From Nakamurella antarctica (GTDB lineage: Bacteria > Actinomycetota > Actinomycetes > Mycobacteriales > Nakamurellaceae): a stretch of 64,000 nucleotides of DNA. This document shows, piece by piece, positions 28,960 to 42,358 of the stretch; within the stretch, counting starts at the first letter, position 1, and each line of letters starts with the position of its first letter. Made by a program: the position numbers and the translations under genes. The notes under the pieces were generated by a model. It worked only from the letters and a program-made list of their open reading frames with translations, was not told the DNA's origin and ran no database searches. The stretch covers positions 310,001 through 374,000 of the forward strand of contig NZ_CP034170.1 in the NCBI RefSeq assembly GCF_003860405.1. The letters are read 5' to 3'.

Positions 28960-30326
28960 TCAGTGCCCGAGAAAGCGCCCAAAAAGCTTGGCAGCGCGCG
29001 ACTCCCGGCCGCTTCTGGTCTCGCTCGCATCGGCGAATCGCATTACCTGCAGCCCCGCGTTGACGCCGATCCAGCGCAGCGGCTCTACTTCCCAGCGGGG
29101 GGACCGGTGCCCCACCCACGGCAGGGCAACGATCTCAGACTCGGCGCCGGTGATGAGATCCGCCAGGGTGCGCCCCGCGAGGTTGGTAGTCGACACCCCG
29201 TCGCCAACGTAGCCGCCAGCCCAACCGAGTCCGGTTTCGCGGTGCAAGCCGACGCTGGCGTTCCAATCGCGCGCTACTCCGAGTGCGCCACCCCAGGCGT
29301 GGCTGAAGCGCACGCCCTGCAGTACGGGGAAAAGGTCAATCAGGTTGCGCTGCAACAGGTTGAATACGCGGGGGTCCGTGTCGAACGATGACTTGGTACG
29401 GGAGTCGAAGTGGTATGGCGCGCCGCGGCCACCGAAGACCAACCGCCCGTCGCCGCTGCGCTGTCCGTAGGAAATGAGGTGTTGGTAATCGGTGAAGGTC
29501 GCCCGATCATGCAAACGGATGGATTCCCATTGCTGATCCGAGAGTGGTTCTGTTGCCACCACCAGGGAATAGATCGGCGCCACATCGCGTCGAGAACTTG
29601 GCAGCGAAGGCGTGTAGCCCTCGGTTGCCCGAATCACCACATCCGCACGTACCGTGCCCGCGTCGCAGACGGCAGCGTGGGGCGGGTGGAGCGAACACGG
29701 CTGCGTTCGTAGAGGGTGACGCCCAGTCTTTCTACGAGCTCGGCGAGCCCGCGGACCAACCGTGCTGGATCTAAGGCCGCGCAATGCGGCGTAAAGGCGC
29801 CGCCGAGAAGGTTAGTGGCGCCAATGATGTCGCTGGTTTCTCTGGAGCCCAGCAGCACCGTGTCCGTATCTCCCCACGAAGCGGCCTCGGCGACATCGGC
29901 CTGCGCCCGCGCCCACTGCGTACGCGAACGCGCCATGGACACGGTGCCGCCATAGGCGAATCCGCACTCCAAGCCTTCAGCTTCGATGACGCGGGCGATC
30001 TCGGCCACCGTTTCCCGCATGGCAGCGCGCATCTGCAGGGCGGCTGGGCGGCCATGGCTGCGCGCAATCTTGGCCGATGATGCGGGAAAGAGCTCCGAAC
30101 ACCAGCCGCCGTTGCGTCCGGACGCACCAAAGCCTGCGATCTCGGCTTCGAGGATCACAATCCGCAGGGCCGGATCGGCTTTGGCCAGGTAATAGGCCGT
30201 CCAGAGACCGGTGAACCCGGCTCCGATGATCACGACATCGGCGTCCCGGTCGCCGGGCAGGGCGGGTCGGGGATCCAGAGAATCCCCGACACCGTCGAGC
30301 CAGAGTGAGAGTTGTTGGTAACTCAT
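28960..30326 (-). pseudogene. FAD-dependent oxidoreductase (gamma-glutamylputrescine oxidase-like) with a single-base frame disruption
   Basis: From ATG 30326 the frame encodes the DAO-type FAD site (ADVVIIGAGFTGLWTAYYLAKADP, then GFGASGRNGGWCSE) and continues to a Arg/Thr-rich junk tail ending at 29634. The next frame picks up at AAVCDAGTVRADVVIRATEGYTPSL and ends at 28960 with TGLGWAGGYVGDGVSTTNLAGRTLADLI. The join lies at CCCC (plus-strand GGGG 29679-29682); one added base gives a normal protein of about 455 residues. Relatives act on putrescine derivatives or other amines. The aminotransferase gene is 3 bases upstream, so it belongs to the polyamine locus. A paralog lies at 38407-39840. 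Confidence 0.87.
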
Positions 30327-30329
30327 GGC

Positions 30330-31679
30330 TTACAGCAGGGTCCACGCTTCGGTGAGAACGCTGCGCAGGATCTGCTCGATCTCGTCGAACTGTGTCTGGT
30401 CGCAGATCAGCGGCGGCGCAACCTGAATCACGGGGTCTCCCCGGTCGTCAGCGCGGCAGTAGAGACCGTTCTCGAAAAGGGCTTTGGACAGGAAACCGCG
30501 TAGCACCCGCTCGCTTTCGGCGTCGGTGAAGCTCTCCTTGGTTGCAGCGTCCTTGACCATTTCGATGCCGTAGAAGTAGCCGTCACCGCGGACGTTACCC
30601 ACGATCGGCAGGTCCATCAGCTTCTCCAGCGTCATGCGGAACGGGTTCTCATTGCGCATGACGTTGCCCAACAGGTCTTCCCGGTCGAAGATGTCAAGGT
30701 TCGCCAGCGCCACGGCGCACGACACCGGGTGGCCACCGAAGGTGTATCCGTGACCGAACATCGCATCGCCCTTGCTGAAGGGCTCGAAGATTCGGTCGGA
30801 GATAATAGCGGCGCCCAGCGGCGAATAGCCCGAGGTCAAACCCTTGGCGCAGGTGATGATGTCAGGCTGGAAGTCGAACTTCTGGGCACCGAACATCGTG
30901 CCCAACCGACCAAAGGCACAGATGGTTTCGTCCGAGATGAGCAGCACGTCGTACTCGTCGCAGATTTCGCGCACCCGCTGGAAATAACCGGGGGGAGGCG
31001 GGAAGCACCCCCCCGCATTCTGTACCGGTTCGAGAAATACGCAGGCAACGGTGGACGGACCCTCAGCGAGGATGGCTTCTTCAATCCGGTTGGCTGCCCA
31101 CTGGCCGAAGGCTTTTTCGTCATCGGCGAGGTGCTCGGGTGCCCGGTAGAAGTTGGTGTTGGGCACGCGGAAGGTTCCGGGAACGAGGGGCTCGAACGCC
31201 TCCTTGAAAGGCGGGATTCCGGTGATGGACAACGCGCCCTGGGTGGTGCCGTGGTAGGCGATAGCGCGCGAGATGACCTTGTGCTTATTGGGTTTGCCGG
31301 TCAGTTTGAAGAACTGCTTTGCCACCTTCCACGCCGTTTCCACTGATTCGGCGCCGCCGGTGGAGTAGAAGACCTTGTTCAAGTCGCCCGGGGCGAGGTC
31401 TGCAAGGCGGTCGGCCAATTCGATGGCGGCGGGGTGCGCGTACGACCAGATCGGGAAGAACGCCAACTTCTCCGCCTGCGCTGCCGCTGCCGCTGCGAGT
31501 TCCTTACGGCCGTGGCCTACCTGAACGGTGAAAAGGCCGGAAAGTGCGTCGAGGTACCGCTTTCCGTTGGTATCGAAGATGTAGGCACCTTCGCCGCGCT
31601 CGATAACGGGCACCGGTGCGTGGTCGTACGACGACATTCTGGTGAAGTGCATCCAGAGGTGGTCAGTTGCGTTACTCAT
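30330..31679 (-). CDS. Class III pyridoxal-phosphate aminotransferase (putrescine/diamine type)
   Basis: This 449-residue class III aminotransferase has the PLP Lys in ITCAKGLTSGYSPLGAA, the Asp in LLISDETICAFGRLG and GYTFGGHPVSCAVALANL at the C-terminal side. This subgroup transaminates putrescine, GABA or beta-alanine, usually with pyruvate as acceptor. The context (Lrp regulator, polyamine transporter, FAD amine oxidases) favours putrescine or a diamine. ATG 31679 overlaps the Lrp stop (ATGA) and is chosen over ATG 31691. Confidence 0.92.
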   Translation of the reverse strand: MSNATDHLWMHFTRMSSYDHAPVPVIERGEGAYIFDTNGKRYLDALSGLFTVQVGHGRKELAAAAAAQAEKLAFFPIWSYAHPAAIELADRLADLAPGDLNKVFYSTGGAESVETAWKVAKQFFKLTGKPNKHKVISRAIAYHGTTQGALSITGIPPFKEAFEPLVPGTFRVPNTNFYRAPEHLADDEKAFGQWAANRIEEAILAEGPSTVACVFLEPVQNAGGCFPPPPGYFQRVREICDEYDVLLISDETICAFGRLGTMFGAQKFDFQPDIITCAKGLTSGYSPLGAAIISDRIFEPFSKGDAMFGHGYTFGGHPVSCAVALANLDIFDREDLLGNVMRNENPFRMTLEKLMDLPIVGNVRGDGYFYGIEMVKDAATKESFTDAESERVLRGFLSKALFENGLYCRADDRGDPVIQVAPPLICDQTQFDEIEQILRSVLTEAWTLL

Positions 31680-32185
31680 CGTGTTCCCCATGTGTAGGTT
31701 TGCTTGGAAAGTTTCAGGTACACAAAGCTTTCGGTGCTTCGGATACCCGGAATGACGCGGATTCGTTCGTTCAGGAGGGCGAGCAGCTGATCGTCGTCTT
31801 CGCAGACAACCTCGGCGAGGATGTCGAACGAGCCGGCGGTCACCACCACGTAGTCGACCTCGTCCATGGCGCAGAGCATGTCCACGATCGGATTCAGGTT
31901 GCCCTCGGCTTTGATGCCGATCATCGCTTGGCGACTAAAGCCCACTTGCAATGGGTCGGTGACTGCGACAATCTGCACCATCCCTGAACCGATGAGCCGC
32001 TGGACCCGTTGCCGGACAGCAGCTTCGGACAATCCCACGGCCGCGCCAATGCTGGCGTAGGGACGCCGGCCATCTTCTTGGAGTTGCTCGATGATGGCCT
32101 TGGAAATGTCGTCGATTCCGGCGGTCGCCAACCGGGAGCGATCGACGATCGCCTTCGTGTCGGGGCCGCTATGTCTGGTGGACAT
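31676..32185 (-). CDS. Lrp/AsnC family transcriptional regulator
   Basis: This 169-residue protein has an N-terminal winged helix-turn-helix (DDISKAIIEQLQEDGRRPYASIGAAVGLSEAAVRQRVQRLIGSG) and a C-terminal RAM/ACT-like ligand-binding domain ending ESFVYLKLSKQTYTWGTR. It should sense an amino acid or amine and control the divergent operons. It overlaps the aminotransferase start, so it is the first gene of the leftward operon. Inverted repeats in 32186-32519 are candidate binding sites. ATG 32185 is the natural start; an open frame goes back to 32422. Confidence 0.92.
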   Translation of the reverse strand: MSTRHSGPDTKAIVDRSRLATAGIDDISKAIIEQLQEDGRRPYASIGAAVGLSEAAVRQRVQRLIGSGMVQIVAVTDPLQVGFSRQAMIGIKAEGNLNPIVDMLCAMDEVDYVVVTAGSFDILAEVVCEDDDQLLALLNERIRVIPGIRSTESFVYLKLSKQTYTWGTR

Positions 32186-32519
32186 CAATCGATCATGACA
32201 AGAGAATCGACAGATGGCAAGTGAATCAGTTGCGTTGTGGCTGATTTTCCACGAAAAACACCGCTGAATGGGATGCATACTGCCGCATGCCTTGCAGAAT
32301 GCTTCAGGGCGAGCGGCCAGGGGTGTGGAAGCGTATTTCTCCCGGTAGGCCGGTGCGCTTGTGTAAACAACTGATGTTTTTCGTTGCCGTCGCGTGACAA
32401 TCCGACGGAAACCCTTGCCCAAACCGGTAAAACAGTGCCACTATCACCATCAATCTAAACCTGTCCCGGGCCGCTTGGCGCCCGTCCGACAGCCGCAAGC
32501 GAACTTTGGGAGGCAACTC
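32186..32519. promoter_or_regulatory. Divergent control region of the polyamine locus
   Basis: This 334-base gap separates the Lrp gene from potD. Two A/T-rich inverted repeats stand out: TTTTC-CAC-GAAAA (32245-32257) and AAACA-ACTGA-TGTTT (32365-32379), plausible Lrp-type sites. A possible rightward promoter has TTGCCC (32415-32420) and CACTAT (32439-32444) with an 18-base gap. All are by eye. Confidence 0.4.
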
Positions 32520-32549
32520 GTGACCCGACTTTTAGGCCGGGCGACATGA
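32520..32549 (+). CDS. Nine-codon leader ORF before potD, or displaced potD start
   Basis: The best ribosome site of the operon (GGGAGG) sits 6 bases before GTG 32520, which reads MTRLLGRAT and stops at TGA 32547-32549, overlapping the potD ATG (32546) as ATGA. It could be a leader peptide coupling translation to potD. Alternatively, one extra T in the TTTT at 32530-32533 would make GTG 32520 the true potD start (MTRLFRPGDMTG...). Confidence 0.4.
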   Translation: MTRLLGRAT

Positions 32550-33769
32550 CTGGCCCAGCCGGACTCACGCCCGCGTCCTCTCCCGGCGCTCGAATGATGT
32601 TCCGCCCGGGGCCACGACTGTCGCGCCGCCGATTTATGCAAACCTCGGCTCTGGGCGCCAGCGCCGCCTTCCTCGCCGCCTGTGGCATCAACCCGGCACG
32701 CCCTGGGCGGCTGACGGTGCCCGATCGGTCCGATATGGACAAGTTTGTGAACTGGTCCAATTGGCAGGGATACATGGACGTCGACGCCAATGATTCGTCG
32801 ATCTTCCCGACGCTTGTGGGATTCCAAGACGAATACGGGATTACGGTCAACTACACCGAAGATGTCAACGACAACACCGAGTATTTTTCAAAGATCCACC
32901 CCCAGATCGCTGCCGGCCAGACCATTACCGCCGATTTGTTCGTCGTCACCGACTGGATGGCAGCCAAGCTCATTCAGCTGGAGTACGTGCAGGAGCTGGA
33001 CCATGCCAACATCCCCAACTTGGCCAACCTCAACCCCGCCTTGCAAAAAGTGACCTTTGACCCGGGCCGCAAATACTCCGCGACGTGGCAGTCCGGGTTG
33101 GCCGGAATTGCCGTCAACCACGCGGTTGTCGGCAAGGACAAGACGGTTGAGTCCATGAACCAGCTGCTCACCGATCCATCCCTGGCTGGACGCATCACGC
33201 TGCTCAAGGAAATGCGGGACACCGTCGCATTGTGCCTGCAGGACTTGGGGTACGACGCCAGCGATTTCACCGACAGCCAATTCATGGAAGCGATCAACAT
33301 GATCGGCGAGGCGGTAAACAGCGGCCAGGTTCGACAGTTCACGGGTAACGACTATGTCCCCAGCTTGGTGTCCGGTGACTTGGCCGCATGTGCCGCTTGG
33401 ACGGGCGATGTTGTTGCGCTGCAGAACGACTCGGACGATTTCGAAATGGTGCTGCCCAAGGCGGGCTACCCGCTGTGGAGCGACAACTGCGTGATTCCTG
33501 CCGCTGCGGCGCATAAGAAGAACGCCGAGATGATCATCAATTACTACTACGAGCCCAGGGTCGCGGCGACCCTCTCGGAATACGTCAACTACATCACCCC
33601 GATTCCCACGGCAAAAGCATTTGCCGCTGAGGACGACCCAGCAATCGCAAACAATCAACTGATTTTCCCGGGCGATGAGATCCTCTCCAACGCGCACGTT
33701 TTCATGGCGCTGGACGGCGAAACCGACGCGCGGTATTCCAAGATCTTCGACAAACTTTCTGGGGCGTGA
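32546..33769 (+). CDS. potD: Polyamine ABC transporter substrate-binding lipoprotein (PotD-like)
   Basis: This 407-residue protein has a twin-arginine signal with lipobox: SRRRFM at residues 26-31, then a hydrophobic stretch ending AFLAAC with Cys46. It is therefore probably exported folded and lipidated. The mature domain is a type 2 spermidine/putrescine-binding fold; acidic and aromatic segments such as NWSNWQGYMDVDAN and SGDLAACAAWTGDV are typical. It binds polyamine outside the membrane. Its stop overlaps the potA start (GTGA). ATG 32546 lacks its own ribosome site (see the leader at 32520). Confidence 0.92.
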   Translation: MTGPAGLTPASSPGARMMFRPGPRLSRRRFMQTSALGASAAFLAACGINPARPGRLTVPDRSDMDKFVNWSNWQGYMDVDANDSSIFPTLVGFQDEYGITVNYTEDVNDNTEYFSKIHPQIAAGQTITADLFVVTDWMAAKLIQLEYVQELDHANIPNLANLNPALQKVTFDPGRKYSATWQSGLAGIAVNHAVVGKDKTVESMNQLLTDPSLAGRITLLKEMRDTVALCLQDLGYDASDFTDSQFMEAINMIGEAVNSGQVRQFTGNDYVPSLVSGDLAACAAWTGDVVALQNDSDDFEMVLPKAGYPLWSDNCVIPAAAAHKKNAEMIINYYYEPRVAATLSEYVNYITPIPTAKAFAAEDDPAIANNQLIFPGDEILSNAHVFMALDGETDARYSKIFDKLSGA

Positions 33770-34908
33770 TGAGAATGGCTGACATGACAAAAGACGATGC
33801 CACGGGTGGACTGTCTATCCGCGGGCTGCGGAAGAACTACGGGAATTTCAGCGCGGTAGACGGGATCGACCTCGAAGTCGAATCCGGTCGCTTCTACGCA
33901 CTGCTCGGTCCATCGGGATGCGGCAAGACCACCACGCTGCGAATGGTTGCCGGGCTCGAGGATCCGGATCAGGGCGAAATTCGCATTGGCGACGTGGATG
34001 TTTCCAAGCTGCGCCCCTACCAGCGCCCAGTCAACACGGTATTCCAGAGTTACGCGCTGTTCCCGCACATGTCGATCTACGAAAACGTGGCCTTCGGTCT
34101 TCGTCGTAAAAAAGAGGACAATATCGACCGCCGGGTGAAAGAAATGCTGGAATTGGTGGATATGGGTCATCTCGCTCAGCGCAAGCCCACCCAGCTCTCC
34201 GGTGGTCAACAACAGCGGGTCGCCGTGGTTCGCGCTTTGGTGAATCGGCCCAAGATCTTGTTGCTGGACGAACCACTCGGGGCGCTTGATCTCAAGCTGC
34301 GCCGGCAGATGCAGCTGGAGCTCAAGCGCATCCAGCTGGAAGTCGGCATTACCTTCATTCACGTCACCCATGATCAGGAAGAGGCCATGACCATGGCCGA
34401 TACGATCGCGGTGCTCAACAAGGGCAAGATCGAACAACTCGGCGCTCCGGTGGATCTTTACGAGAACCCCTCCACCGCTTTCGTAGCTGGCTTCCTCGGC
34501 CAGTCGAACCTGTTGAACGCAGTGGTTACTGAACGGCAGGGGGATGTGATCGTTCTCAATGTCGACGGTGTTCGCGTCTGTATGCCCGCATCCCGTGCAC
34601 ACGCCACCGGCAACGCCATGAGCGTCGGGGTGCGACCAGAAAAGATCCAGTTGGCCGAAATGGGAATGGCTCCGGTAGGCCACAACGTGATCGACGGCGA
34701 GATCGTGGACGCCTCCTTTATCGGTGTGTCGACCCAATACCTGGTGCGCACCGCAACGAACGATGAAATGACGGTCTTCAGCCAGAACACCGCAACGTTC
34801 CCCCGGCAGGTGGGCATGAAGGTCTGTATGCACTGGGATCCGGCGCACACCTTCGGCCTTGCCGCGGGTGCTCATGAAATCGCCGCTGCTGCGGAGATCG
34901 CATCATGA
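33766..34908 (+). CDS. potA: Polyamine ABC transporter ATP-binding protein (PotA-like)
   Basis: This 380-residue protein has Walker A GPSGCGKTT near residue 47, signature LSGGQQQR, Walker B ILLLDEPLGALD and a switch His in THDQEEAM. About 130 C-terminal residues form the TOBE/OB domain typical of PotA and MalK-like ATPases. It powers polyamine uptake. GTG 33766 overlaps the potD stop; ATG 33769 next to it is equally possible. Confidence 0.95.
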   Translation: MMRMADMTKDDATGGLSIRGLRKNYGNFSAVDGIDLEVESGRFYALLGPSGCGKTTTLRMVAGLEDPDQGEIRIGDVDVSKLRPYQRPVNTVFQSYALFPHMSIYENVAFGLRRKKEDNIDRRVKEMLELVDMGHLAQRKPTQLSGGQQQRVAVVRALVNRPKILLLDEPLGALDLKLRRQMQLELKRIQLEVGITFIHVTHDQEEAMTMADTIAVLNKGKIEQLGAPVDLYENPSTAFVAGFLGQSNLLNAVVTERQGDVIVLNVDGVRVCMPASRAHATGNAMSVGVRPEKIQLAEMGMAPVGHNVIDGEIVDASFIGVSTQYLVRTATNDEMTVFSQNTATFPRQVGMKVCMHWDPAHTFGLAAGAHEIAAAAEIAS

Positions 34909-34951
34909 TCAGGGCGGACCTTTCTGCCGCGGACGCCTTGGCGGGCACGCG

Positions 34952-35878
34952 ATGACGGCGGCAGCTGCTGCGGTTGCGGAGACCTCGGGGCTCAGCACCC
35001 CGCCGCCACCGCCGGGCCCCCGCAGTAAAAAGTTGACTCCGCTGTTCCTTCTGCTGCCTGCAGCGCTAGCGATGCTGGTTTTCTTCGTCATCCCGATCAT
35101 GACGCTAGCCTCGACATCGCTGATGCAGGGCAGCCTTTCCACCGGATTCCGGCAGACCTTCCGCTGGTCCAACTACGGCGAAATCCTCAGCGAGTACTAC
35201 CCGCAATTCCTACGCTCTTTGTTGTACGCCAGCCTGGCCACACTGATGACGTTGTTGATCGCCTACCCGCTGGCCTACATGATCGCCTTCAAAGCGGGCC
35301 GCTTGCGAGCGGTGCTGCTCGTGCTGGTCATTGCCCCGTTCTTTACCAGCTTCCTAGTCCGCACCATTGCCTGGAAGCAGATCCTCGCCGACGACGGTGC
35401 CATCGTGCACTTCATGAATAACACCGGCTTGATGTGGCTGTTTGATCACCTCGGCTTGACTGAGGGACGCGTACTATCAACACCTTTCGGTGTGATCCTC
35501 GGCCTCACCTACAACTTCTTGCCGTTTATGGTGCTGCCGCTGTACGCGTCTTTGGAGAAGATCGACCGTTCGCTGCTGATGGCCTCCGGCGACCTATACG
35601 CCAACAGTTGGACCAGTTTCTGGAAGATCACCTGGCCGCTGTCGCTGCCCGGTGTGGTCAGCGGAACGCTGATGACCTTTATCCCCGCGGCCGGTGACTA
35701 CGTGAACGCGGAATTGCTCGGTGGCCCGTCTACCACCATGGCGGGCAACGTGGTCAATAACCAAGTCCGAAACTTCCAATACCCCGCGTCGGCAGCGATG
35801 TCGGTCGTATTGATGTTGGCCATTGTCTTGCTGGTGGCCTTCTACGTGAAACGCTCTGGCACGGAGGAACTGGTCTGA
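34952..35878 (+). CDS. potB: Polyamine ABC transporter permease (PotB-like)
   Basis: This 308-residue protein has a Pro-rich N-terminal tail followed by six membrane helices; the first lies at about residues 32-52. The EAA loop is ASGDLYANSWTSFWKITWPLSLPG, followed by SGTLMTFIPAAGDYVNAELLGGP, characteristic of PotB/PotH. It forms the channel with PotC. It starts 43 bases after potA; the frame extends upstream to 34859 inside potA but ATG 34952 fits the family. Confidence 0.92.
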   Translation: MTAAAAAVAETSGLSTPPPPPGPRSKKLTPLFLLLPAALAMLVFFVIPIMTLASTSLMQGSLSTGFRQTFRWSNYGEILSEYYPQFLRSLLYASLATLMTLLIAYPLAYMIAFKAGRLRAVLLVLVIAPFFTSFLVRTIAWKQILADDGAIVHFMNNTGLMWLFDHLGLTEGRVLSTPFGVILGLTYNFLPFMVLPLYASLEKIDRSLLMASGDLYANSWTSFWKITWPLSLPGVVSGTLMTFIPAAGDYVNAELLGGPSTTMAGNVVNNQVRNFQYPASAAMSVVLMLAIVLLVAFYVKRSGTEELV

Positions 35879-36723
35879 TGGTCCATCAAATGCTCGACAC
35901 CACCCCGCCGGCCGCCCACAAGCCGAACCGCCCCACGGTGGGACGGTGGATCCGAGACCACCTCGTGGTGGTGTTCGGAATCTTGGCGCTGCTGTTCATG
36001 TTCGCGCCGATCGCCAACGTCGTCCGGTTTTCCTTCAACAAGCCCGAAGGAAAGATCAACCTCATTTGGAACCAGTTCTCCCTGGACGCCTGGAAGGACC
36101 CCTGCGGGGCCAGCGGCCTGTGCGATTCGCTCTGGACGTCCATCTGGATAGGCGTCGTCGCCACCGCTATCGCCACCGGCGTTGGCACCTTGGCTGCCTT
36201 CGGTATGTCCCGGCACCGTTTCCGTGGTCGGGGGCTCGCCAATGTTCTGGTGTTCCTACCCATGGCCACCCCTGAAGTTGTGGCGGGATCCTCGCTTCTG
36301 ACTTTGTTCCTCAACTTGGGCGTACCCCTGGGAGCGGTGACCGTCGTCATCGCGCACGTCATGTTCTGTCTGTCGTTCGTCATTGTGACGGTGAAGGCCC
36401 GGCTTGCCGGAATGGACCCCACATTGGAACAGGCCGCGCAAGATTTGTATGCCGACCCCACTCAAACGTTCTGGCGGGTCACGTTTCCGCTGGTATTGCC
36501 CGGAATCGTTTCCGCGGCGATGTTGTCGTTCTCGCTGTCGTTCGACGACTTCATCATCACGAACTTCAACTCCGGCTCAACCGTCACCTTCCCGATGTAC
36601 GTGTGGGGCGCCGCGCAGCGCGGGCTCGCGCCACAGGTCAACGTCGTCGGCACCGGTATGTTGGTCATTGCTCTCACAGTGGTCGTCATCGGCCGATTCG
36701 TATCTTCTAGGCGGGCGCGGTAG
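35878..36723 (+). CDS. potC: Polyamine ABC transporter permease (PotC-like)
   Basis: This 281-residue protein has six membrane helices and an EAA loop AAQDLYADPTQTFWRVTFPLVLPG, followed by LSFSLSFDDFIITNFNSG, a PotC/PotI hallmark. It pairs with PotB. The ATG shares its first base with the potB TGA. The dehydrogenase gene begins 5 bases after its stop, so catabolism and uptake share one transcript. Confidence 0.93.
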   Translation: MVHQMLDTTPPAAHKPNRPTVGRWIRDHLVVVFGILALLFMFAPIANVVRFSFNKPEGKINLIWNQFSLDAWKDPCGASGLCDSLWTSIWIGVVATAIATGVGTLAAFGMSRHRFRGRGLANVLVFLPMATPEVVAGSSLLTLFLNLGVPLGAVTVVIAHVMFCLSFVIVTVKARLAGMDPTLEQAAQDLYADPTQTFWRVTFPLVLPGIVSAAMLSFSLSFDDFIITNFNSGSTVTFPMYVWGAAQRGLAPQVNVVGTGMLVIALTVVVIGRFVSSRRAR

Positions 36724-36728
36724 CGACA

Positions 36729-38240
36729 ATGTCAGGATCACAACCTCATATCTTCAATCCAGCGCTGAACTACATCGGCGGCCGCAGGGTGGCCGGAGCG
36801 GGCGCGGCGTTTGCCGTGATCGACCCCTGCTCCGGCGCTTCGATTCTCGACTACCAACTGGCTACCGGTGGGCAGGCGGAGGAAGCGGTTCACTGTGCGC
36901 GGCAAGCATTCCGGCAGTGGTCGCGCACCACACCGGGGGAGCGCTCGGGCTTGATTCAAGCGCTGGCCCACAAGCTCACAGACAGGTCCGACGAGCTGGC
37001 AAGTGTTGAGTCGGCTCAGACCGGCAAGCCGCTGAAGCTGGCCAGCGGGTTTGACGTGCCTGGCACTATCGACAACGCCGCGTTCTTCGCTGGCGCCGCC
37101 CGGGTCCTTGAGGGCAGCGCAGCAGGCGAGTACTCGCCGGACCACACGTCGATGATTCGGCGCGAGCCCATCGGCGTCATCGGTTCGATCGCGCCGTGGA
37201 ACTATCCGCTGCAAATGGCTGGCTGGAAAATACTGCCTGCCATTGCTGCGGGTAACACGATCGTGCTCAAACCATCTGAGATCACCCCGTTGACGGCTCT
37301 GCTGTTCGCCGAGGCCGCTTCGGAGGCCGGAATCCCGGATGGCGTCATCAATGTCGTCACCGGAACCGGCTTGGAAGTAGGAAATGCCCTCACCGGTAAC
37401 AGGCAAGTCGACATGGTCTCCTTCACCGGCTCAACCGCTGTTGGCCGTCAAGTAATGGCAAGTTGCGCCGCTCGGGCGGCCAGGGTGCATCTGGAATTAG
37501 GCGGCAAGGCGCCGTTCGTGGTTTTCGCCGATGCGGACCTTGATGCGGCCGTCCACGGCGCCGTTGCGGGCTCGCTGATCAATACCGGCCAGGATTGCAC
37601 CGCAGCCACCCGCGCGTACGTCCATGTGTCGTTACTCGAGGCGTTCACCGCCGGAGTTGCGGACCTGTTTGCATCGATTGTGCTTGGAGCCCCCGACGAT
37701 TCGAACACCGACCTGGGTCCCCTTTCCAGTGCGCGGCACCGGGATCACGTTGCTGGGTTCGTCGCACGAGCGCGCGCCGACGGCGGACGCGTCTATGACG
37801 GTGGAGCGCTGCCAAGTGGTGAACTGGCTGGCGGATTCTGGCACCGGCCCACCTTGATCGCCGGCCTGCCGCAGTCCGCTGAAGCGGTGCAATCGGAGAT
37901 CTTTGGACCGGTGTTGACCGTCATCGGATTCGATACCGATGATGAGGCGTTGGCGATGGCTAATGACAGCCCATTCGGTTTGGCTGCCTCCGCGTGGACC
38001 GGCGACGTTCACCGCGCGCTGCGAGCCAGCCGCGAAATCAACGCCGGTACGGTGTGGATAAACGACCACATTCCGATTTTCTCGGAGATGCCACACGGCG
38101 GGTTCGGCGCATCTGGCTTCGGGAAGGACATGAGTGTCTACTCCCTGCAGGAATACAGCCAGATCAAGCATGTCGCCATGGACCTGACAGGCACAGTGGA
38201 AAAAGACTGGCACCGTACAATTTTCAAGTCCCCTTCTTAG
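36729..38240 (+). CDS. Aldehyde dehydrogenase (gamma-aminobutyraldehyde dehydrogenase-like)
   Basis: This 503-residue NAD+-dependent aldehyde dehydrogenase has the general-base Glu in HLELGGKAPFVV and the catalytic Cys in NTGQDCTAATRAYV, plus PWNYPLQMAGWKILPA in the cofactor site. The pot operon context suggests oxidation of 4-aminobutyraldehyde (from putrescine) to GABA, as for PatD/PuuC. Betaine aldehyde dehydrogenases look similar, so specificity is inferred from position. It is cotranscribed with potC. Confidence 0.92.
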   Translation: MSGSQPHIFNPALNYIGGRRVAGAGAAFAVIDPCSGASILDYQLATGGQAEEAVHCARQAFRQWSRTTPGERSGLIQALAHKLTDRSDELASVESAQTGKPLKLASGFDVPGTIDNAAFFAGAARVLEGSAAGEYSPDHTSMIRREPIGVIGSIAPWNYPLQMAGWKILPAIAAGNTIVLKPSEITPLTALLFAEAASEAGIPDGVINVVTGTGLEVGNALTGNRQVDMVSFTGSTAVGRQVMASCAARAARVHLELGGKAPFVVFADADLDAAVHGAVAGSLINTGQDCTAATRAYVHVSLLEAFTAGVADLFASIVLGAPDDSNTDLGPLSSARHRDHVAGFVARARADGGRVYDGGALPSGELAGGFWHRPTLIAGLPQSAEAVQSEIFGPVLTVIGFDTDDEALAMANDSPFGLAASAWTGDVHRALRASREINAGTVWINDHIPIFSEMPHGGFGASGFGKDMSVYSLQEYSQIKHVAMDLTGTVEKDWHRTIFKSPS

Positions 38241-38257: not shown

Positions 38258-38410
38258 ATGTTCCCCACCCCAGGGCCCAGCGCCTCAAGCCCCCAGGGCG
38301 CCAATGGCGATTCCGACGGCTGCTCCCTCAACACTGCGATGTGGGATGCCAAAACTGGCACCGTCGCAGAGACCTCCCGTAAAATTTTTGATTGGATAAC
38401 CCACGCATGA
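38258..38410 (+). CDS. Small ORF (50 residues) between the dehydrogenase and oxidase genes
   Basis: ATG 38258 opens a 50-codon frame: MFPTPGPSASSPQG... with a Pro/Ser-rich start and the end TSRKIFDWITHA. It stops at TGA 38408-38410, overlapping the ATG 38407 of the next gene as ATGA. The overlap, its snug fit in an otherwise empty 150-base gap and a purine-rich AGAAAGTGAA upstream suggest it is translated. I recognise no family. It could also be a coupling leader for the oxidase. Confidence 0.45.
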   Translation: MFPTPGPSASSPQGANGDSDGCSLNTAMWDAKTGTVAETSRKIFDWITHA

Positions 38411-39840
38411 TAAAAAAAGCACGCACCCCAGCAACCTCACTCCATCAACAAGCCGTGCAGTCGCTGCGCGATGCCGAGCCCGTCTGTTACTGGCTCGATG
38501 ATGTCGATTCCCCCGTTCAACGAGAGCGGTTGACGGAAGACAGAAAAACTGACCTAGCGGTGGTCGGGGCAGGTTACTCCGGCCTCTGGACCGCGCTGCT
38601 GGCAAAACAACGAGACCCGGAACGTGAAGTCACCGTTCTGGAAGGTCGCAATATCGGATGGGCCGCATCCGGGCGCAACGGCGGTTTCTGCTCCGCATCG
38701 CTCACCCACGGCCAAGCCAACGGGCTGGATTGGTACCCCAGAGATATGCCGAGGCTGGAACGTCTCGGTCGCGAAAACCTGGCCGGGATCGTCGACACCA
38801 TCAAAGAGTTCAGTATCGATTGCAAGCTTGAGCAAACGGGCGAAATGCGGGTCGCAACCGAGGAGTACCAACTCGAAGATATCGAAGTGGACTACCGGCG
38901 AATGCTCGACTTCGGCGATGAGGCAGTGCTGCTTAACCAAGAAGAAACCAGGGCTCAAGCCAACTCGCCGACTTATCTCGGCGCCGTCTGGTCCAAAGAC
39001 AAGACCGTGATGGTGGACCCGGCGCGACTGGCCTGGGGTTTGGCAGATGCCTGCGAGCAGCTTGGCGTCAAGATTTATGAGAACACGAACGTCGATGGGC
39101 TGTCCCGTGATGGCGACACCATGCAGTTGCACACCCATAACGGGATCATTTCAGCTGATCGAGTTGCGCTGGGCACCAACGCTTTTCCGTCGCTACTGAA
39201 GCGGGTACGGCCATTCGTTGTCCCGGTGTACGACTACTCGTTGACCACCGAACCGTTGACCGATGCGCAGCTGGCGTCCATCGGTTGGAACAACCGTCAG
39301 GGCATCGGCGATTCCGGCAACCAGTTTCACTACTACCGCCTCACCGAGGACAACTCCATCCTGTGGGGCGGATACGACGTGATCTACCACTACGGCGGCA
39401 AGATCGAAGAGAAGTACGACCAACGGCCAGCAACATTCGAGATCTTGGCAGAGCACTTCTTCGAAACTTTCCCCCAGCTTGAGGGCATTAAATTCAGCCA
39501 CAGCTGGGGCGGCGTCATCGACACGTGTTCGCGGTTCTTCCCGTTCTACGGCACCGGCCACGGCGGCCGGGTGGCACACGCCACCGGTTTCACCGGACTC
39601 GGCGTGGGCGCGACCCGCTTCGGCGCGCAAGTGATGCTCGATTTGCTCGACGGAGCTGACACCGAACTCACCGTTCTCGACACGGTCCGCGGCAAGCCGG
39701 TCCCGTTCCCGCCAGAGCCGCTCCGGTCAGCCGTCATCGGCGTCACGAAGCGGTCTATCGCGCACGCGGATGCGAACGAGGGCAAGCGAAACTTGTGGTT
39801 GCGCTCGCTCGACCGGTTCGGCTTGGGTTTCGACTCCTAG
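38407..39840 (+). CDS. FAD-dependent oxidoreductase (gamma-glutamylputrescine oxidase-like)
   Basis: This is an about 477-residue DAO-fold flavoenzyme. The FAD site is DLAVVGAGYSGLWTALLAKQRDPE with GWAASGRNGGFCS downstream, followed by DYSLTTEPLTDAQLASIGW and the C-terminal HATGFTGLGVGATRFGAQVMLDLLDG. Relatives oxidise gamma-glutamylputrescine or other secondary amines. ATG 38407 overlaps the small ORF stop; a TTG at 38392 is possible. It is a paralog of the interrupted oxidase at 28960-30326. Confidence 0.9.
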   Translation: MIKKARTPATSLHQQAVQSLRDAEPVCYWLDDVDSPVQRERLTEDRKTDLAVVGAGYSGLWTALLAKQRDPEREVTVLEGRNIGWAASGRNGGFCSASLTHGQANGLDWYPRDMPRLERLGRENLAGIVDTIKEFSIDCKLEQTGEMRVATEEYQLEDIEVDYRRMLDFGDEAVLLNQEETRAQANSPTYLGAVWSKDKTVMVDPARLAWGLADACEQLGVKIYENTNVDGLSRDGDTMQLHTHNGIISADRVALGTNAFPSLLKRVRPFVVPVYDYSLTTEPLTDAQLASIGWNNRQGIGDSGNQFHYYRLTEDNSILWGGYDVIYHYGGKIEEKYDQRPATFEILAEHFFETFPQLEGIKFSHSWGGVIDTCSRFFPFYGTGHGGRVAHATGFTGLGVGATRFGAQVMLDLLDGADTELTVLDTVRGKPVPFPPEPLRSAVIGVTKRSIAHADANEGKRNLWLRSLDRFGLGFDS

Positions 39841-40027: not shown

Positions 40028-42358
40028 ATGGAAGAAAGTTGCTGTTCGAACGTTCACGAAGGTGTCGTCTTCTCGACGCCGAAAATGCTAGTGCGAGAGT
40101 GGAACACCATGGCGCGATACGGCGCAATGTACGGCCCCGATGTCACCTTCACAGGTGTACCCCGATGCGATCTGAGCGATCCGGCGAGTTACGCAGATGC
40201 CACCGCCGTGATCGTGGGCGCCCCCTACGACTCGGGAACCTCTTACCGGTCGGGCGCCCGGATGGGCCCGCTCGCGATTCGGACATGTGACTATTCGGAG
40301 CACACCGGATCTCGCCCACATATTGGTTTGCGGGTCGACCCACTTGCGGGCGTGATGGACGCGGGTGATATCGAGATGGCGCCGACCGAGACCATCCGGT
40401 CATTGAACAACTTGCAGAAGGCGATCCGTCAAATCGTTTCGCACGGGAAGCTCCCGATCATCCTCGGCGGCGACCACACCGTCGCCATGGCCGATATCAC
40501 CGGCGCAGCAGAGCATTTCGGATTTGGCCGACTGTCTGTCATCCATTTTGACGCGCACGCCGACACCGGCGACATCCAGTTCGGATCCCTGTACGGCCAC
40601 GGGCTGCCGATGCGGCGACTGATTGAATCCGGTGCCGTCCGCGGTGATAAATTCCTGCAGATCGGGTTGCGCGGCTACTGGCCCGAACCTCCCGAGCTCG
40701 CCTGGATGGCGCAGCAGGGTATGCGCGGCTACGAGATGGGCGAGATCCGCCGCCGCGGCCTCGACGACGTGCTCACCGAAGCCATGGAAATCGCCATGAC
40801 GGACACCGACGGCGTGTTCCTCTCGGTCGACATCGACGTGGTGGACCCAGGAATGGCTCCCGGAACCGGGACCCCGGAGCCCGGCGGATTCACGGGCCGC
40901 GAACTGCTCGACGCCGTTCGCCGGATCGCGCGCGAAACCAACCTGGTCGGGATGGAGATCGTCGAAGTTGCACCGCCCTACGATCACTCCGATGTGACCG
41001 CGATTTTGGCCAATAGGGTTGTCCTGGAAACCCTCTCCGGGATTGCCCGCCGCAAACTGGATGCGGAAACCGGAACACATTTCGACGATACGATGCCGGT
41101 GCTTCAGGGACTCACGGACATAGCCGTACCGTCGGGCGACGGCAAAATTCGGGTGCTCATGGTCGGCGCCGGTGGCGTCGGTTCTGCCATTGTGGCCACA
41201 GCAGCGAAGCGGAATTACATCGAAGCCATGGTGGTCGCTGACTACGATCTCGACCGCGCGATTCACGCCGTCGAGGCAGCGGGCGACGGACGCTTCATCC
41301 CGGCGCAGGTCGACGCGACCGATTCGATGGCGGTCGAGGGACTCCTCAAGCGCTACCGCTGCGACCTTCTCCTCAACGCGACGGACCCGCGTTTCGTCAT
41401 GCCGCTGTTTAATGCGGCCCTTGCCGGCGGAGCCCACTACATGGACATGGCGATGTCCATGTCGGTGCCCCACCCCACCGACCCGTACAACACCCCGGGC
41501 GTCAAGCTCGGCGACGAACAGTTCGCGGCCGAGGACGCGTGGAAGGCTGGCAACCAACTCGCCCTCGTCGGAATGGGCGTGGAGCCGGGACTTTCGGACG
41601 TTTTTGCTCGTTATGCCGCCGACCACCTGTTCAGTGAGATTGACGAAATCGGTGTCCGCGATGGTGGCAACCTCGTGGTGCAGGGGTACTCGTTTGCGCC
41701 CACCTTCTCGATCTGGACGACCATCGAGGAGTGCCTGAACCCGCCGGTCATTTACGAAAAAGATCGGGGCTGGTTTACGACCGAGCCCTTTTCCGAGCCC
41801 GAGATCTTCGAATTCCCCGAAGGCATTGGGCCGGTGGAGTGTGTGAACGTCGAGCACGAAGAAGTGCTGCTGATCCCGCGGTGGGTCGACGCAAAGCGCG
41901 TGACCTTCAAGTACGGACTCGGCGAGGAGTTCATCAACATGCTGAAGATGCAGCACACCCTCGGTATTGACTCCACCGTTGCGCTCAAGGTTGGCGACGT
42001 GATGGTGTCCCCGCGCGACGTGATCGCGGCACTCCTGCCGGACCCGGCCACTCTCGGAGACAAGATGGAAGGCAAAACCTGCGCCGGAACATGGGTGAAA
42101 GGCCTTGGCAAGGACGGCAATCCCCGCGAGGTGTACATCTATCACGTGGTCGACAACGAGTGGTCGATGGACGCATACAAGTCGCAAGCGGTGGTGTGGC
42201 AGACCGCGCTTTGCCCGGTGATCGCCATGGAATTACTTGCCACCGGTGTCTGGAGCGGCACCGGGGTTCTCGGACCGGAAGCCTTCGATTCGGTGCCATT
42301 CATGGAACTTCTCGTCGAGCACGGAGCGCCGTGGGGGATGCGGGAAGAGCAGGTATAG
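40028..42358 (+). CDS. Agmatinase-type ureohydrolase fused to a saccharopine dehydrogenase-like domain
   Basis: This 776-residue single frame has two domains. Residues about 50-345 are an agmatinase/arginase-fold ureohydrolase with all manganese ligands: GGDH (His150), FDAHAD (Asp175, His177, Asp179) and VDIDVVDP (Asp268, Asp270). Residues about 374-770 begin with a Rossmann motif, RVLMVGAGGVGSAI, and match the saccharopine dehydrogenase-like family (relatives include carboxynorspermidine dehydrogenase), as in LVGMGVEPGLSDVFARYAADH. In actinobacteria I know these as two genes, so the joining linker (about 346-373) is unusual. Start uncertain: 40028, 40085 or 40109; conserved sequence begins at about residue 30. 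It ends the polyamine operon; the first domain would release urea from agmatine or guanidinobutyrate. Confidence 0.9.
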   Translation: MEESCCSNVHEGVVFSTPKMLVREWNTMARYGAMYGPDVTFTGVPRCDLSDPASYADATAVIVGAPYDSGTSYRSGARMGPLAIRTCDYSEHTGSRPHIGLRVDPLAGVMDAGDIEMAPTETIRSLNNLQKAIRQIVSHGKLPIILGGDHTVAMADITGAAEHFGFGRLSVIHFDAHADTGDIQFGSLYGHGLPMRRLIESGAVRGDKFLQIGLRGYWPEPPELAWMAQQGMRGYEMGEIRRRGLDDVLTEAMEIAMTDTDGVFLSVDIDVVDPGMAPGTGTPEPGGFTGRELLDAVRRIARETNLVGMEIVEVAPPYDHSDVTAILANRVVLETLSGIARRKLDAETGTHFDDTMPVLQGLTDIAVPSGDGKIRVLMVGAGGVGSAIVATAAKRNYIEAMVVADYDLDRAIHAVEAAGDGRFIPAQVDATDSMAVEGLLKRYRCDLLLNATDPRFVMPLFNAALAGGAHYMDMAMSMSVPHPTDPYNTPGVKLGDEQFAAEDAWKAGNQLALVGMGVEPGLSDVFARYAADHLFSEIDEIGVRDGGNLVVQGYSFAPTFSIWTTIEECLNPPVIYEKDRGWFTTEPFSEPEIFEFPEGIGPVECVNVEHEEVLLIPRWVDAKRVTFKYGLGEEFINMLKMQHTLGIDSTVALKVGDVMVSPRDVIAALLPDPATLGDKMEGKTCAGTWVKGLGKDGNPREVYIYHVVDNEWSMDAYKSQAVVWQTALCPVIAMELLATGVWSGTGVLGPEAFDSVPFMELLVEHGAPWGMREEQV

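Follow-up and report, generated by a model that had tools for sequence, protein, structure and literature searches.

The proteins closest to the C-terminal half of the enzyme described here are the carboxy(nor)spermidine dehydrogenases (CASDH/CANSDH; PDB 8deb, 4ina, 4rl6 and 8h4z), which share with it the same pair of Pfam domains and give the best full-length match. According to PMC10413350, Ser34, Thr36, Lys39 and Arg45 of CASDH form the network that contacts the NADP 2'-phosphate, and CASDH shows no turnover with NADH; the role assigned below to the active-site triad is taken from the same paper. Where CASDH homologues take agmatine as their substrate, the product is N1-aminopropylagmatine, from which spermidine is then made (PMC11999265). 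The carboxyaminopropylagmatine pathway (CAPADH/CAPADC, with a ureohydrolase) also employs a CASDH homologue and turns agmatine into spermidine (PMC11999265); searching that paper by term did not turn up a fusion. In its broad fold and polyamine chemistry the dehydrogenase half resembles bacterial homospermidine synthase (4plp, 4tvb), whose NAD dependence it is predicted to share (PMC4725965). The N-terminal half has in common with the agmatinase/ureohydrolase superfamily (SpeB, GbuA, GpuA, guanidine hydrolase) a complete arginase domain and the metal site; in contrast to these enzymes it carries a C-terminal dehydrogenase, and its substrate is not fixed by sequence. The locus lies in a 64,000-nucleotide stretch of the Nakamurella antarctica genome (the window), to which all coordinates refer unless another locus is named.

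A ureohydrolase and a dehydrogenase in one frame

As the initial annotation had proposed, a single uninterrupted frame of 776 codons (40028-42358, + strand) encodes a ureohydrolase followed by a saccharopine-dehydrogenase-like protein. The true start is probably at 40109, which would yield a protein of 749 aa, because close homologues (L022 among them) begin at MARYG, residue 28 of the ORF. Residues are numbered from the ORF start in the following features:

40028..42358, + strand: fused gene, ureohydrolase + saccharopine-dehydrogenase-like (776 aa ORF; Pfam; fusion also in 7 congeners)
40202..41032, + strand: ureohydrolase (Arginase, PF00491) domain, residues 59-335 (Pfam; TIGR01230; metal ligands)
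41114..41146, + strand: interdomain linker of 11 residues, 363-373, TDIAVPSGDGK (comparison with fused congeners and standalone ureohydrolases; L116 arrangement)
41153..41554, + strand: saccharopine-dehydrogenase NAD(P)-binding domain, residues 376-509 (Pfam; Asp405 at the CASDH Ser34 position)
41576..42325, + strand: saccharopine-dehydrogenase C-terminal domain, residues 517-766 (Pfam; W563, E567, E568, H610-E611-E612 triad)

The Pfam matches are all far over their cut-offs: Arginase with E 4e-84 and, for a dehydrogenase-like part that is complete as first described, Sacchrp_dh_NADP with E 9e-19 and Sacchrp_dh_C with E 1e-22. The full metal site expected of the ureohydrolase was found, with all six ligands (H150, D175, H177, D179, D268 and D270) in a complete Arginase domain bearing the GGDH, DAHxD and SxDxDxxDP motifs. 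The ureohydrolase C-terminus is intact ahead of the linker, which is narrower than the range first given (about 41060-41150) and falls inside it. The same stop-free fused frame is present in 8 of the 17 genomes of the window's genus (Nakamurella-like soil actinobacteria), at 73-80% identity. As seven other genomes carry this continuous frame, a stop missed in the linker, which would have undone the initial annotation, and a sequencing artefact are both ruled out: the fusion of the two genes is real. An AlphaFold2 model of the fusion was discarded (alignment of 5 sequences, mean pLDDT 43).

The ureohydrolase half is probably an agmatinase, judging from profile scores: it reaches 192.3 bits with the TIGR01230 agmatinase model (above the cut-off of 174.3) and 209 with the PRK02190 agmatinase subfamily model (below the cut-off of 302). 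Its best solved match is 'Probable agmatinase 2' (7esr), which we take to be a guanidine hydrolase, and it scores higher against this protein and proclavaminate amidinohydrolase than against the agmatinases 7lol and 7lba.

Coenzyme and substrate sites of the dehydrogenase half

The dehydrogenase half and its orthologues form a group with members in many Actinomycetota (roughly 57-73% identity) and in Desulfobacterota (55-56%). Its suspected kinship to carboxy(nor)spermidine dehydrogenase holds, as the best profile and sequence matches are CASDH enzymes, the nearest solved relatives being 4ina, 4rl6, 8deb and 8h4z, and the similarity to CASDH is full-length and includes the His-Glu-Glu triad (H610-E611-E612 in the window protein). 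A family profile search to E 0.1 found CASDH and neither homospermidine synthase nor lysine 6-dehydrogenase; homospermidine synthase, with no sequence match detectable at this threshold, also differs in having no ureohydrolase part. The NF043000 carboxynorspermidine synthase model gave 166 bits for the window protein and 172 for a Desulfobacula member, both below the cut-off of 800.

Residues were then compared across 36 family members, using BfCASDH numbering. Glu188, the base His228 and Glu229 are invariant. Ser34 is replaced by Asp in 35 of the 35 members scored (Asp405 in the window protein), Arg35 is mostly Tyr and Thr36 mostly Asp, and the NADPH 2'-phosphate site formed by these three residues in BfCASDH is not retained in the family. 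In the active-site loop Arg187, which presumably binds the carboxylate of aspartate semialdehyde in CASDH, is Glu in all 36 members, as is Tyr227; Glu183 is replaced by Trp, and the Ser144 position is not conserved within the family. Because the NADP-site Ser34 is Asp and both Arg187 and Tyr227 are Glu, the dehydrogenase half would be expected to use NAD+, and its pocket, being more acidic, to suit a cationic substrate. The direction of the reaction does not follow from coenzyme preference alone. The replacements at positions 34, 183, 187 and 227 distinguish the window's family from CASDH/CANSDH, and the window protein further differs from these enzymes in that it has no partner decarboxylase, lies in a catabolic neighbourhood and is fused to a ureohydrolase.

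The initial annotation had also considered a reductive condensation. On the model of the carboxyspermidine or carboxyaminopropylagmatine pathways, the dehydrogenase would join an aminoaldehyde or aspartate semialdehyde to putrescine or agmatine, and the ureohydrolase would supply or trim the amine. The nearest characterised proteins are CASDH enzymes with the same triad, and the route by which agmatine-using CASDH homologues lead through N1-aminopropylagmatine to spermidine (PMC11999265) provides a precedent. However, searches of the window's genome returned no match for spermidine synthase, AdoMet decarboxylase, a CASDC/NspC-type decarboxylase or an OKR-type arginine/ornithine decarboxylase, the arginine decarboxylases covered being those of the OKR type. 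The sole PF02784 match in this genome looks like LysA and adjoins an arginyl-tRNA synthetase-like ORF, and no partner carboxyspermidine decarboxylase was found. The biosynthetic carboxyaminopropylagmatine pathway, which needs both CAPADC and an arginine decarboxylase, was set aside because neither was found in the genome among the families searched. The change of the NADPH-type Ser to an NAD-type Asp and of Arg187 to Glu, together with the importers and degradative genes around the dehydrogenase, also count against reductive synthesis, which we regard as improbable.

Gene neighbourhoods and the proposed reaction

The genes upstream of the fused gene are the following:

28960..30326, - strand: second FAD-dependent oxidoreductase, frame broken mid-gene
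30330..31691, - strand: class III omega-aminotransferase (PRK06541), divergent operon
31676..32422, - strand: Lrp/AsnC-family regulator, divergent
32546-33769, 33766-34908, 34859-35878 and 35878-36723, + strand: PotD-, PotA-, PotB- and PotC-like ABC importer genes (homology; synteny)
36729..38240, + strand: aminobutyraldehyde dehydrogenase (PRK13473, 678 bits, cut-off 615)
38392..39840, + strand: FAD-dependent amine oxidase-like protein (DAO family)

This cluster of a PotDABC-like importer, aminobutyraldehyde dehydrogenase, FAD oxidase, omega-aminotransferase and Lrp regulator agrees with the link to polyamines that had been suggested. The aminotransferase (30330-31691) is very close to the solved Streptomyces class III aminotransferases 9gh9, 9qgh and 9qc2 (780-786 bits). 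The FAD oxidoreductase at 28960-30326 (- strand) has a frameshift near codon 215 and is either a pseudogene or the product of a sequencing error; its homologues in L077 and L121 are intact.

In Desulfobacula, the dehydrogenase gene is accompanied by PotABCD, Lrp and an aldehyde-ferredoxin oxidoreductase-like gene, and by genes for a putrescine aminotransferase (643 bits, cut-off 612) and an agmatine deiminase (582 bits, cut-off 382); an agmatine-removing enzyme therefore recurs, though of a different family. Two Desulfobacula MAGs differ in the agmatine deiminase gene that adjoins the dehydrogenase (L025 13124-14287, L026 13301-14389): one has it split, the other whole. On a Mycobacterium plasmid the dehydrogenase is found with an aminotransferase, Lrp and a gamma-aminobutyraldehyde dehydrogenase, with no ureohydrolase beside it. 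The dehydrogenase also occurs without a nearby ureohydrolase on Streptomyces plasmids and in Desulfobacula, and the ureohydrolase occurs without the dehydrogenase in one congener (G006). In the phylum sample, close orthologues of the two co-occur above expectation (5 of the 13 genomes with the ureohydrolase; one-sided Fisher p = 0.012, a value that counts the window's own genome and ignores relatedness). Plasmid-borne dehydrogenase genes of Streptomyces and Kitasatospora adjoin TetR and/or APC permease genes. APC-family permeases adjoin the standalone dehydrogenase in Streptomyces, Kitasatospora and two congeners (L102, L103, L069, L071) and could possibly be dedicated amine importers.

That the two halves also occur apart would fit two independent activities sharing one polypeptide only for co-expression; the ureohydrolase would then use a different guanidino compound (guanidinobutyrate, guanidine), and the dehydrogenase an unrelated amine, for example lysine. 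The best solved match of the ureohydrolase half, 'Probable agmatinase 2', and the Streptomyces and Kitasatospora dehydrogenase copies that lie near LysE/ArgP or APC permease genes point the same way. However, polyamine importers, putrescine aminotransferase, agmatine deiminase and aminobutyraldehyde dehydrogenase repeatedly adjoin the gene in distant phyla, and we give such an incidental fusion only a low probability.

With moderate confidence, we propose instead that the fused gene encodes a bifunctional enzyme of catabolism, one half hydrolysing agmatine or a related guanidine and the other oxidising a polyamine with NAD+. We infer for it the oxidative direction, the use of NAD+, the substrates and the products as follows. 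The PotDABC-like importer would bring in agmatine, from which (or from a closely related guanidino compound) the N-terminal ureohydrolase would release urea, leaving putrescine. The C-terminal half would be an NAD+-dependent polyamine dehydrogenase related to CASDH and working oxidatively on a fully cationic polyamine; its most likely reaction would be the cleavage of a secondary amine (spermidine + NAD+ + H2O to diamine + aminoaldehyde + NADH), and the next most likely the oxidation of putrescine or agmatine itself. The aminotransferase, FAD oxidase and aminobutyraldehyde dehydrogenase encoded nearby would then take up the products and turn them into GABA-type acids. Spermidine-type secondary amines are favoured for two reasons: the reverse of the CASDH reaction would be a cleavage of the carboxylated analogue, and the Desulfobacula cluster already includes an aminotransferase for putrescine. 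Against this catabolic reading, CASDH itself catalyses a reductive condensation; moreover, the dehydrogenase step is not forced by the pathway, since the aminotransferase and FAD oxidase of the cluster could oxidise putrescine.

The halves might alternatively act in sequence, putrescine from the ureohydrolase being channelled to the dehydrogenase half and oxidised with NAD+ to 4-aminobutanal, from which the neighbouring aldehyde dehydrogenase would make GABA. Such a deamination of putrescine is the first half-reaction of homospermidine synthase, which oxidises putrescine with the help of NAD and a Trp cation-pi contact (PMC4725965); the predicted NAD-type coenzyme site, the conserved Trp in the substrate loop (provided that it lies like Trp229 of homospermidine synthase) and the aminobutyraldehyde dehydrogenase of the window cluster would all suit it. 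However, the dehydrogenase exists without a neighbouring ureohydrolase, the profile search leads to CASDH and not to homospermidine synthase or lysine 6-dehydrogenase, and in Desulfobacula a putrescine dehydrogenase would be redundant because a dedicated putrescine aminotransferase adjoins the gene. We therefore consider the sequential reaction unlikely. Since either half also occurs by itself, shared regulation suffices to account for their pairing, with no need to invoke channelling or an obligate channelled sequence between the halves.

Distribution and origin of the fusion

The search for the same architecture across actinobacteria, advised by the initial annotation, covered overlapping samples of 396 (phylum), 399 (order) and 395 (class) genomes, and no true fusion was found in them outside the window's genus. 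One apparent fusion (G866; L115 5051-7342, - strand) was rejected as a frameshift that joins two genes and bypasses the ureohydrolase stop, because the fused frame lacks the final helix of the ureohydrolase, whose normal C-terminus and stop are read in another frame; it is a useful example of a false fusion.

Within the class it is common for the ureohydrolase and dehydrogenase genes to be separate and adjacent, in either order. The stop of the former shares one base with the start of the latter in L075, and a gap of 4 bp separates the genes in L119. L116, from a related family, carries nearly the same genes as the window (ALDH-PotD-A-B-C-FAD oxidase-ureohydrolase-dehydrogenase), and here the ureohydrolase and dehydrogenase genes are collinear, in the same frame and 39 bp apart, with two in-frame stops between them, so that losing those stops would yield the fusion. 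Because of this arrangement, the linker is probably former intergenic DNA; most likely, the stop codons in a short spacer between neighbouring genes of the same frame were lost. Adjacent pairs in L116, L119, L120 and L075 bear out the derivation from neighbouring actinobacterial genes. The fusion is probably a local joining of neighbours within a known type of pathway, and not the wholly new polyamine route that had been envisaged as a possibility.

In the trees, all eight dehydrogenase halves of the fused proteins group in a single clade (support 100/100). Four congeners, however, have standalone ureohydrolases that branch among the fused ureohydrolase halves, so that a single clade of the latter was rejected (AU p = 0.0015). 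Any of three events would explain this pattern: a second fusion, the replacement of one half, or a later split. Three of these four congeners have a standalone dehydrogenase elsewhere in the genome that groups with Streptomyces-like copies. The standalone dehydrogenases of G005, G009 and G015 group with another family of the class, apart from the fused halves, which suggests a transfer or an old paralogue replacing the lost half.

No description of the fusion or of the dehydrogenase family was found in the open-access papers searched, which form an incomplete collection. Tentatively, and with less confidence than in the bifunctional catabolic enzyme, we suggest that the dehydrogenase half represents an undescribed, widespread NAD+-dependent family cleaving spermidine-type secondary amines, and that the fusion in this genus feeds agmatine and spermidine into putrescine breakdown. 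The group, present in many of the actinobacteria sampled and in sulphate reducers, carries the misleading name 'saccharopine dehydrogenase', and its neighbours point to polyamine catabolism. The fusion directly joins the ureohydrolase and dehydrogenase activities, and its likely pre-fusion arrangement, which is available as well, is of use for work on the emergence of gene fusions. Of more value as a target than the fusion itself is the wider dehydrogenase family: if its members are NAD+-linked polyamine dehydrogenases, they would provide a spermidine-cleaving step for polyamine use by actinobacteria, and many annotations would be corrected.
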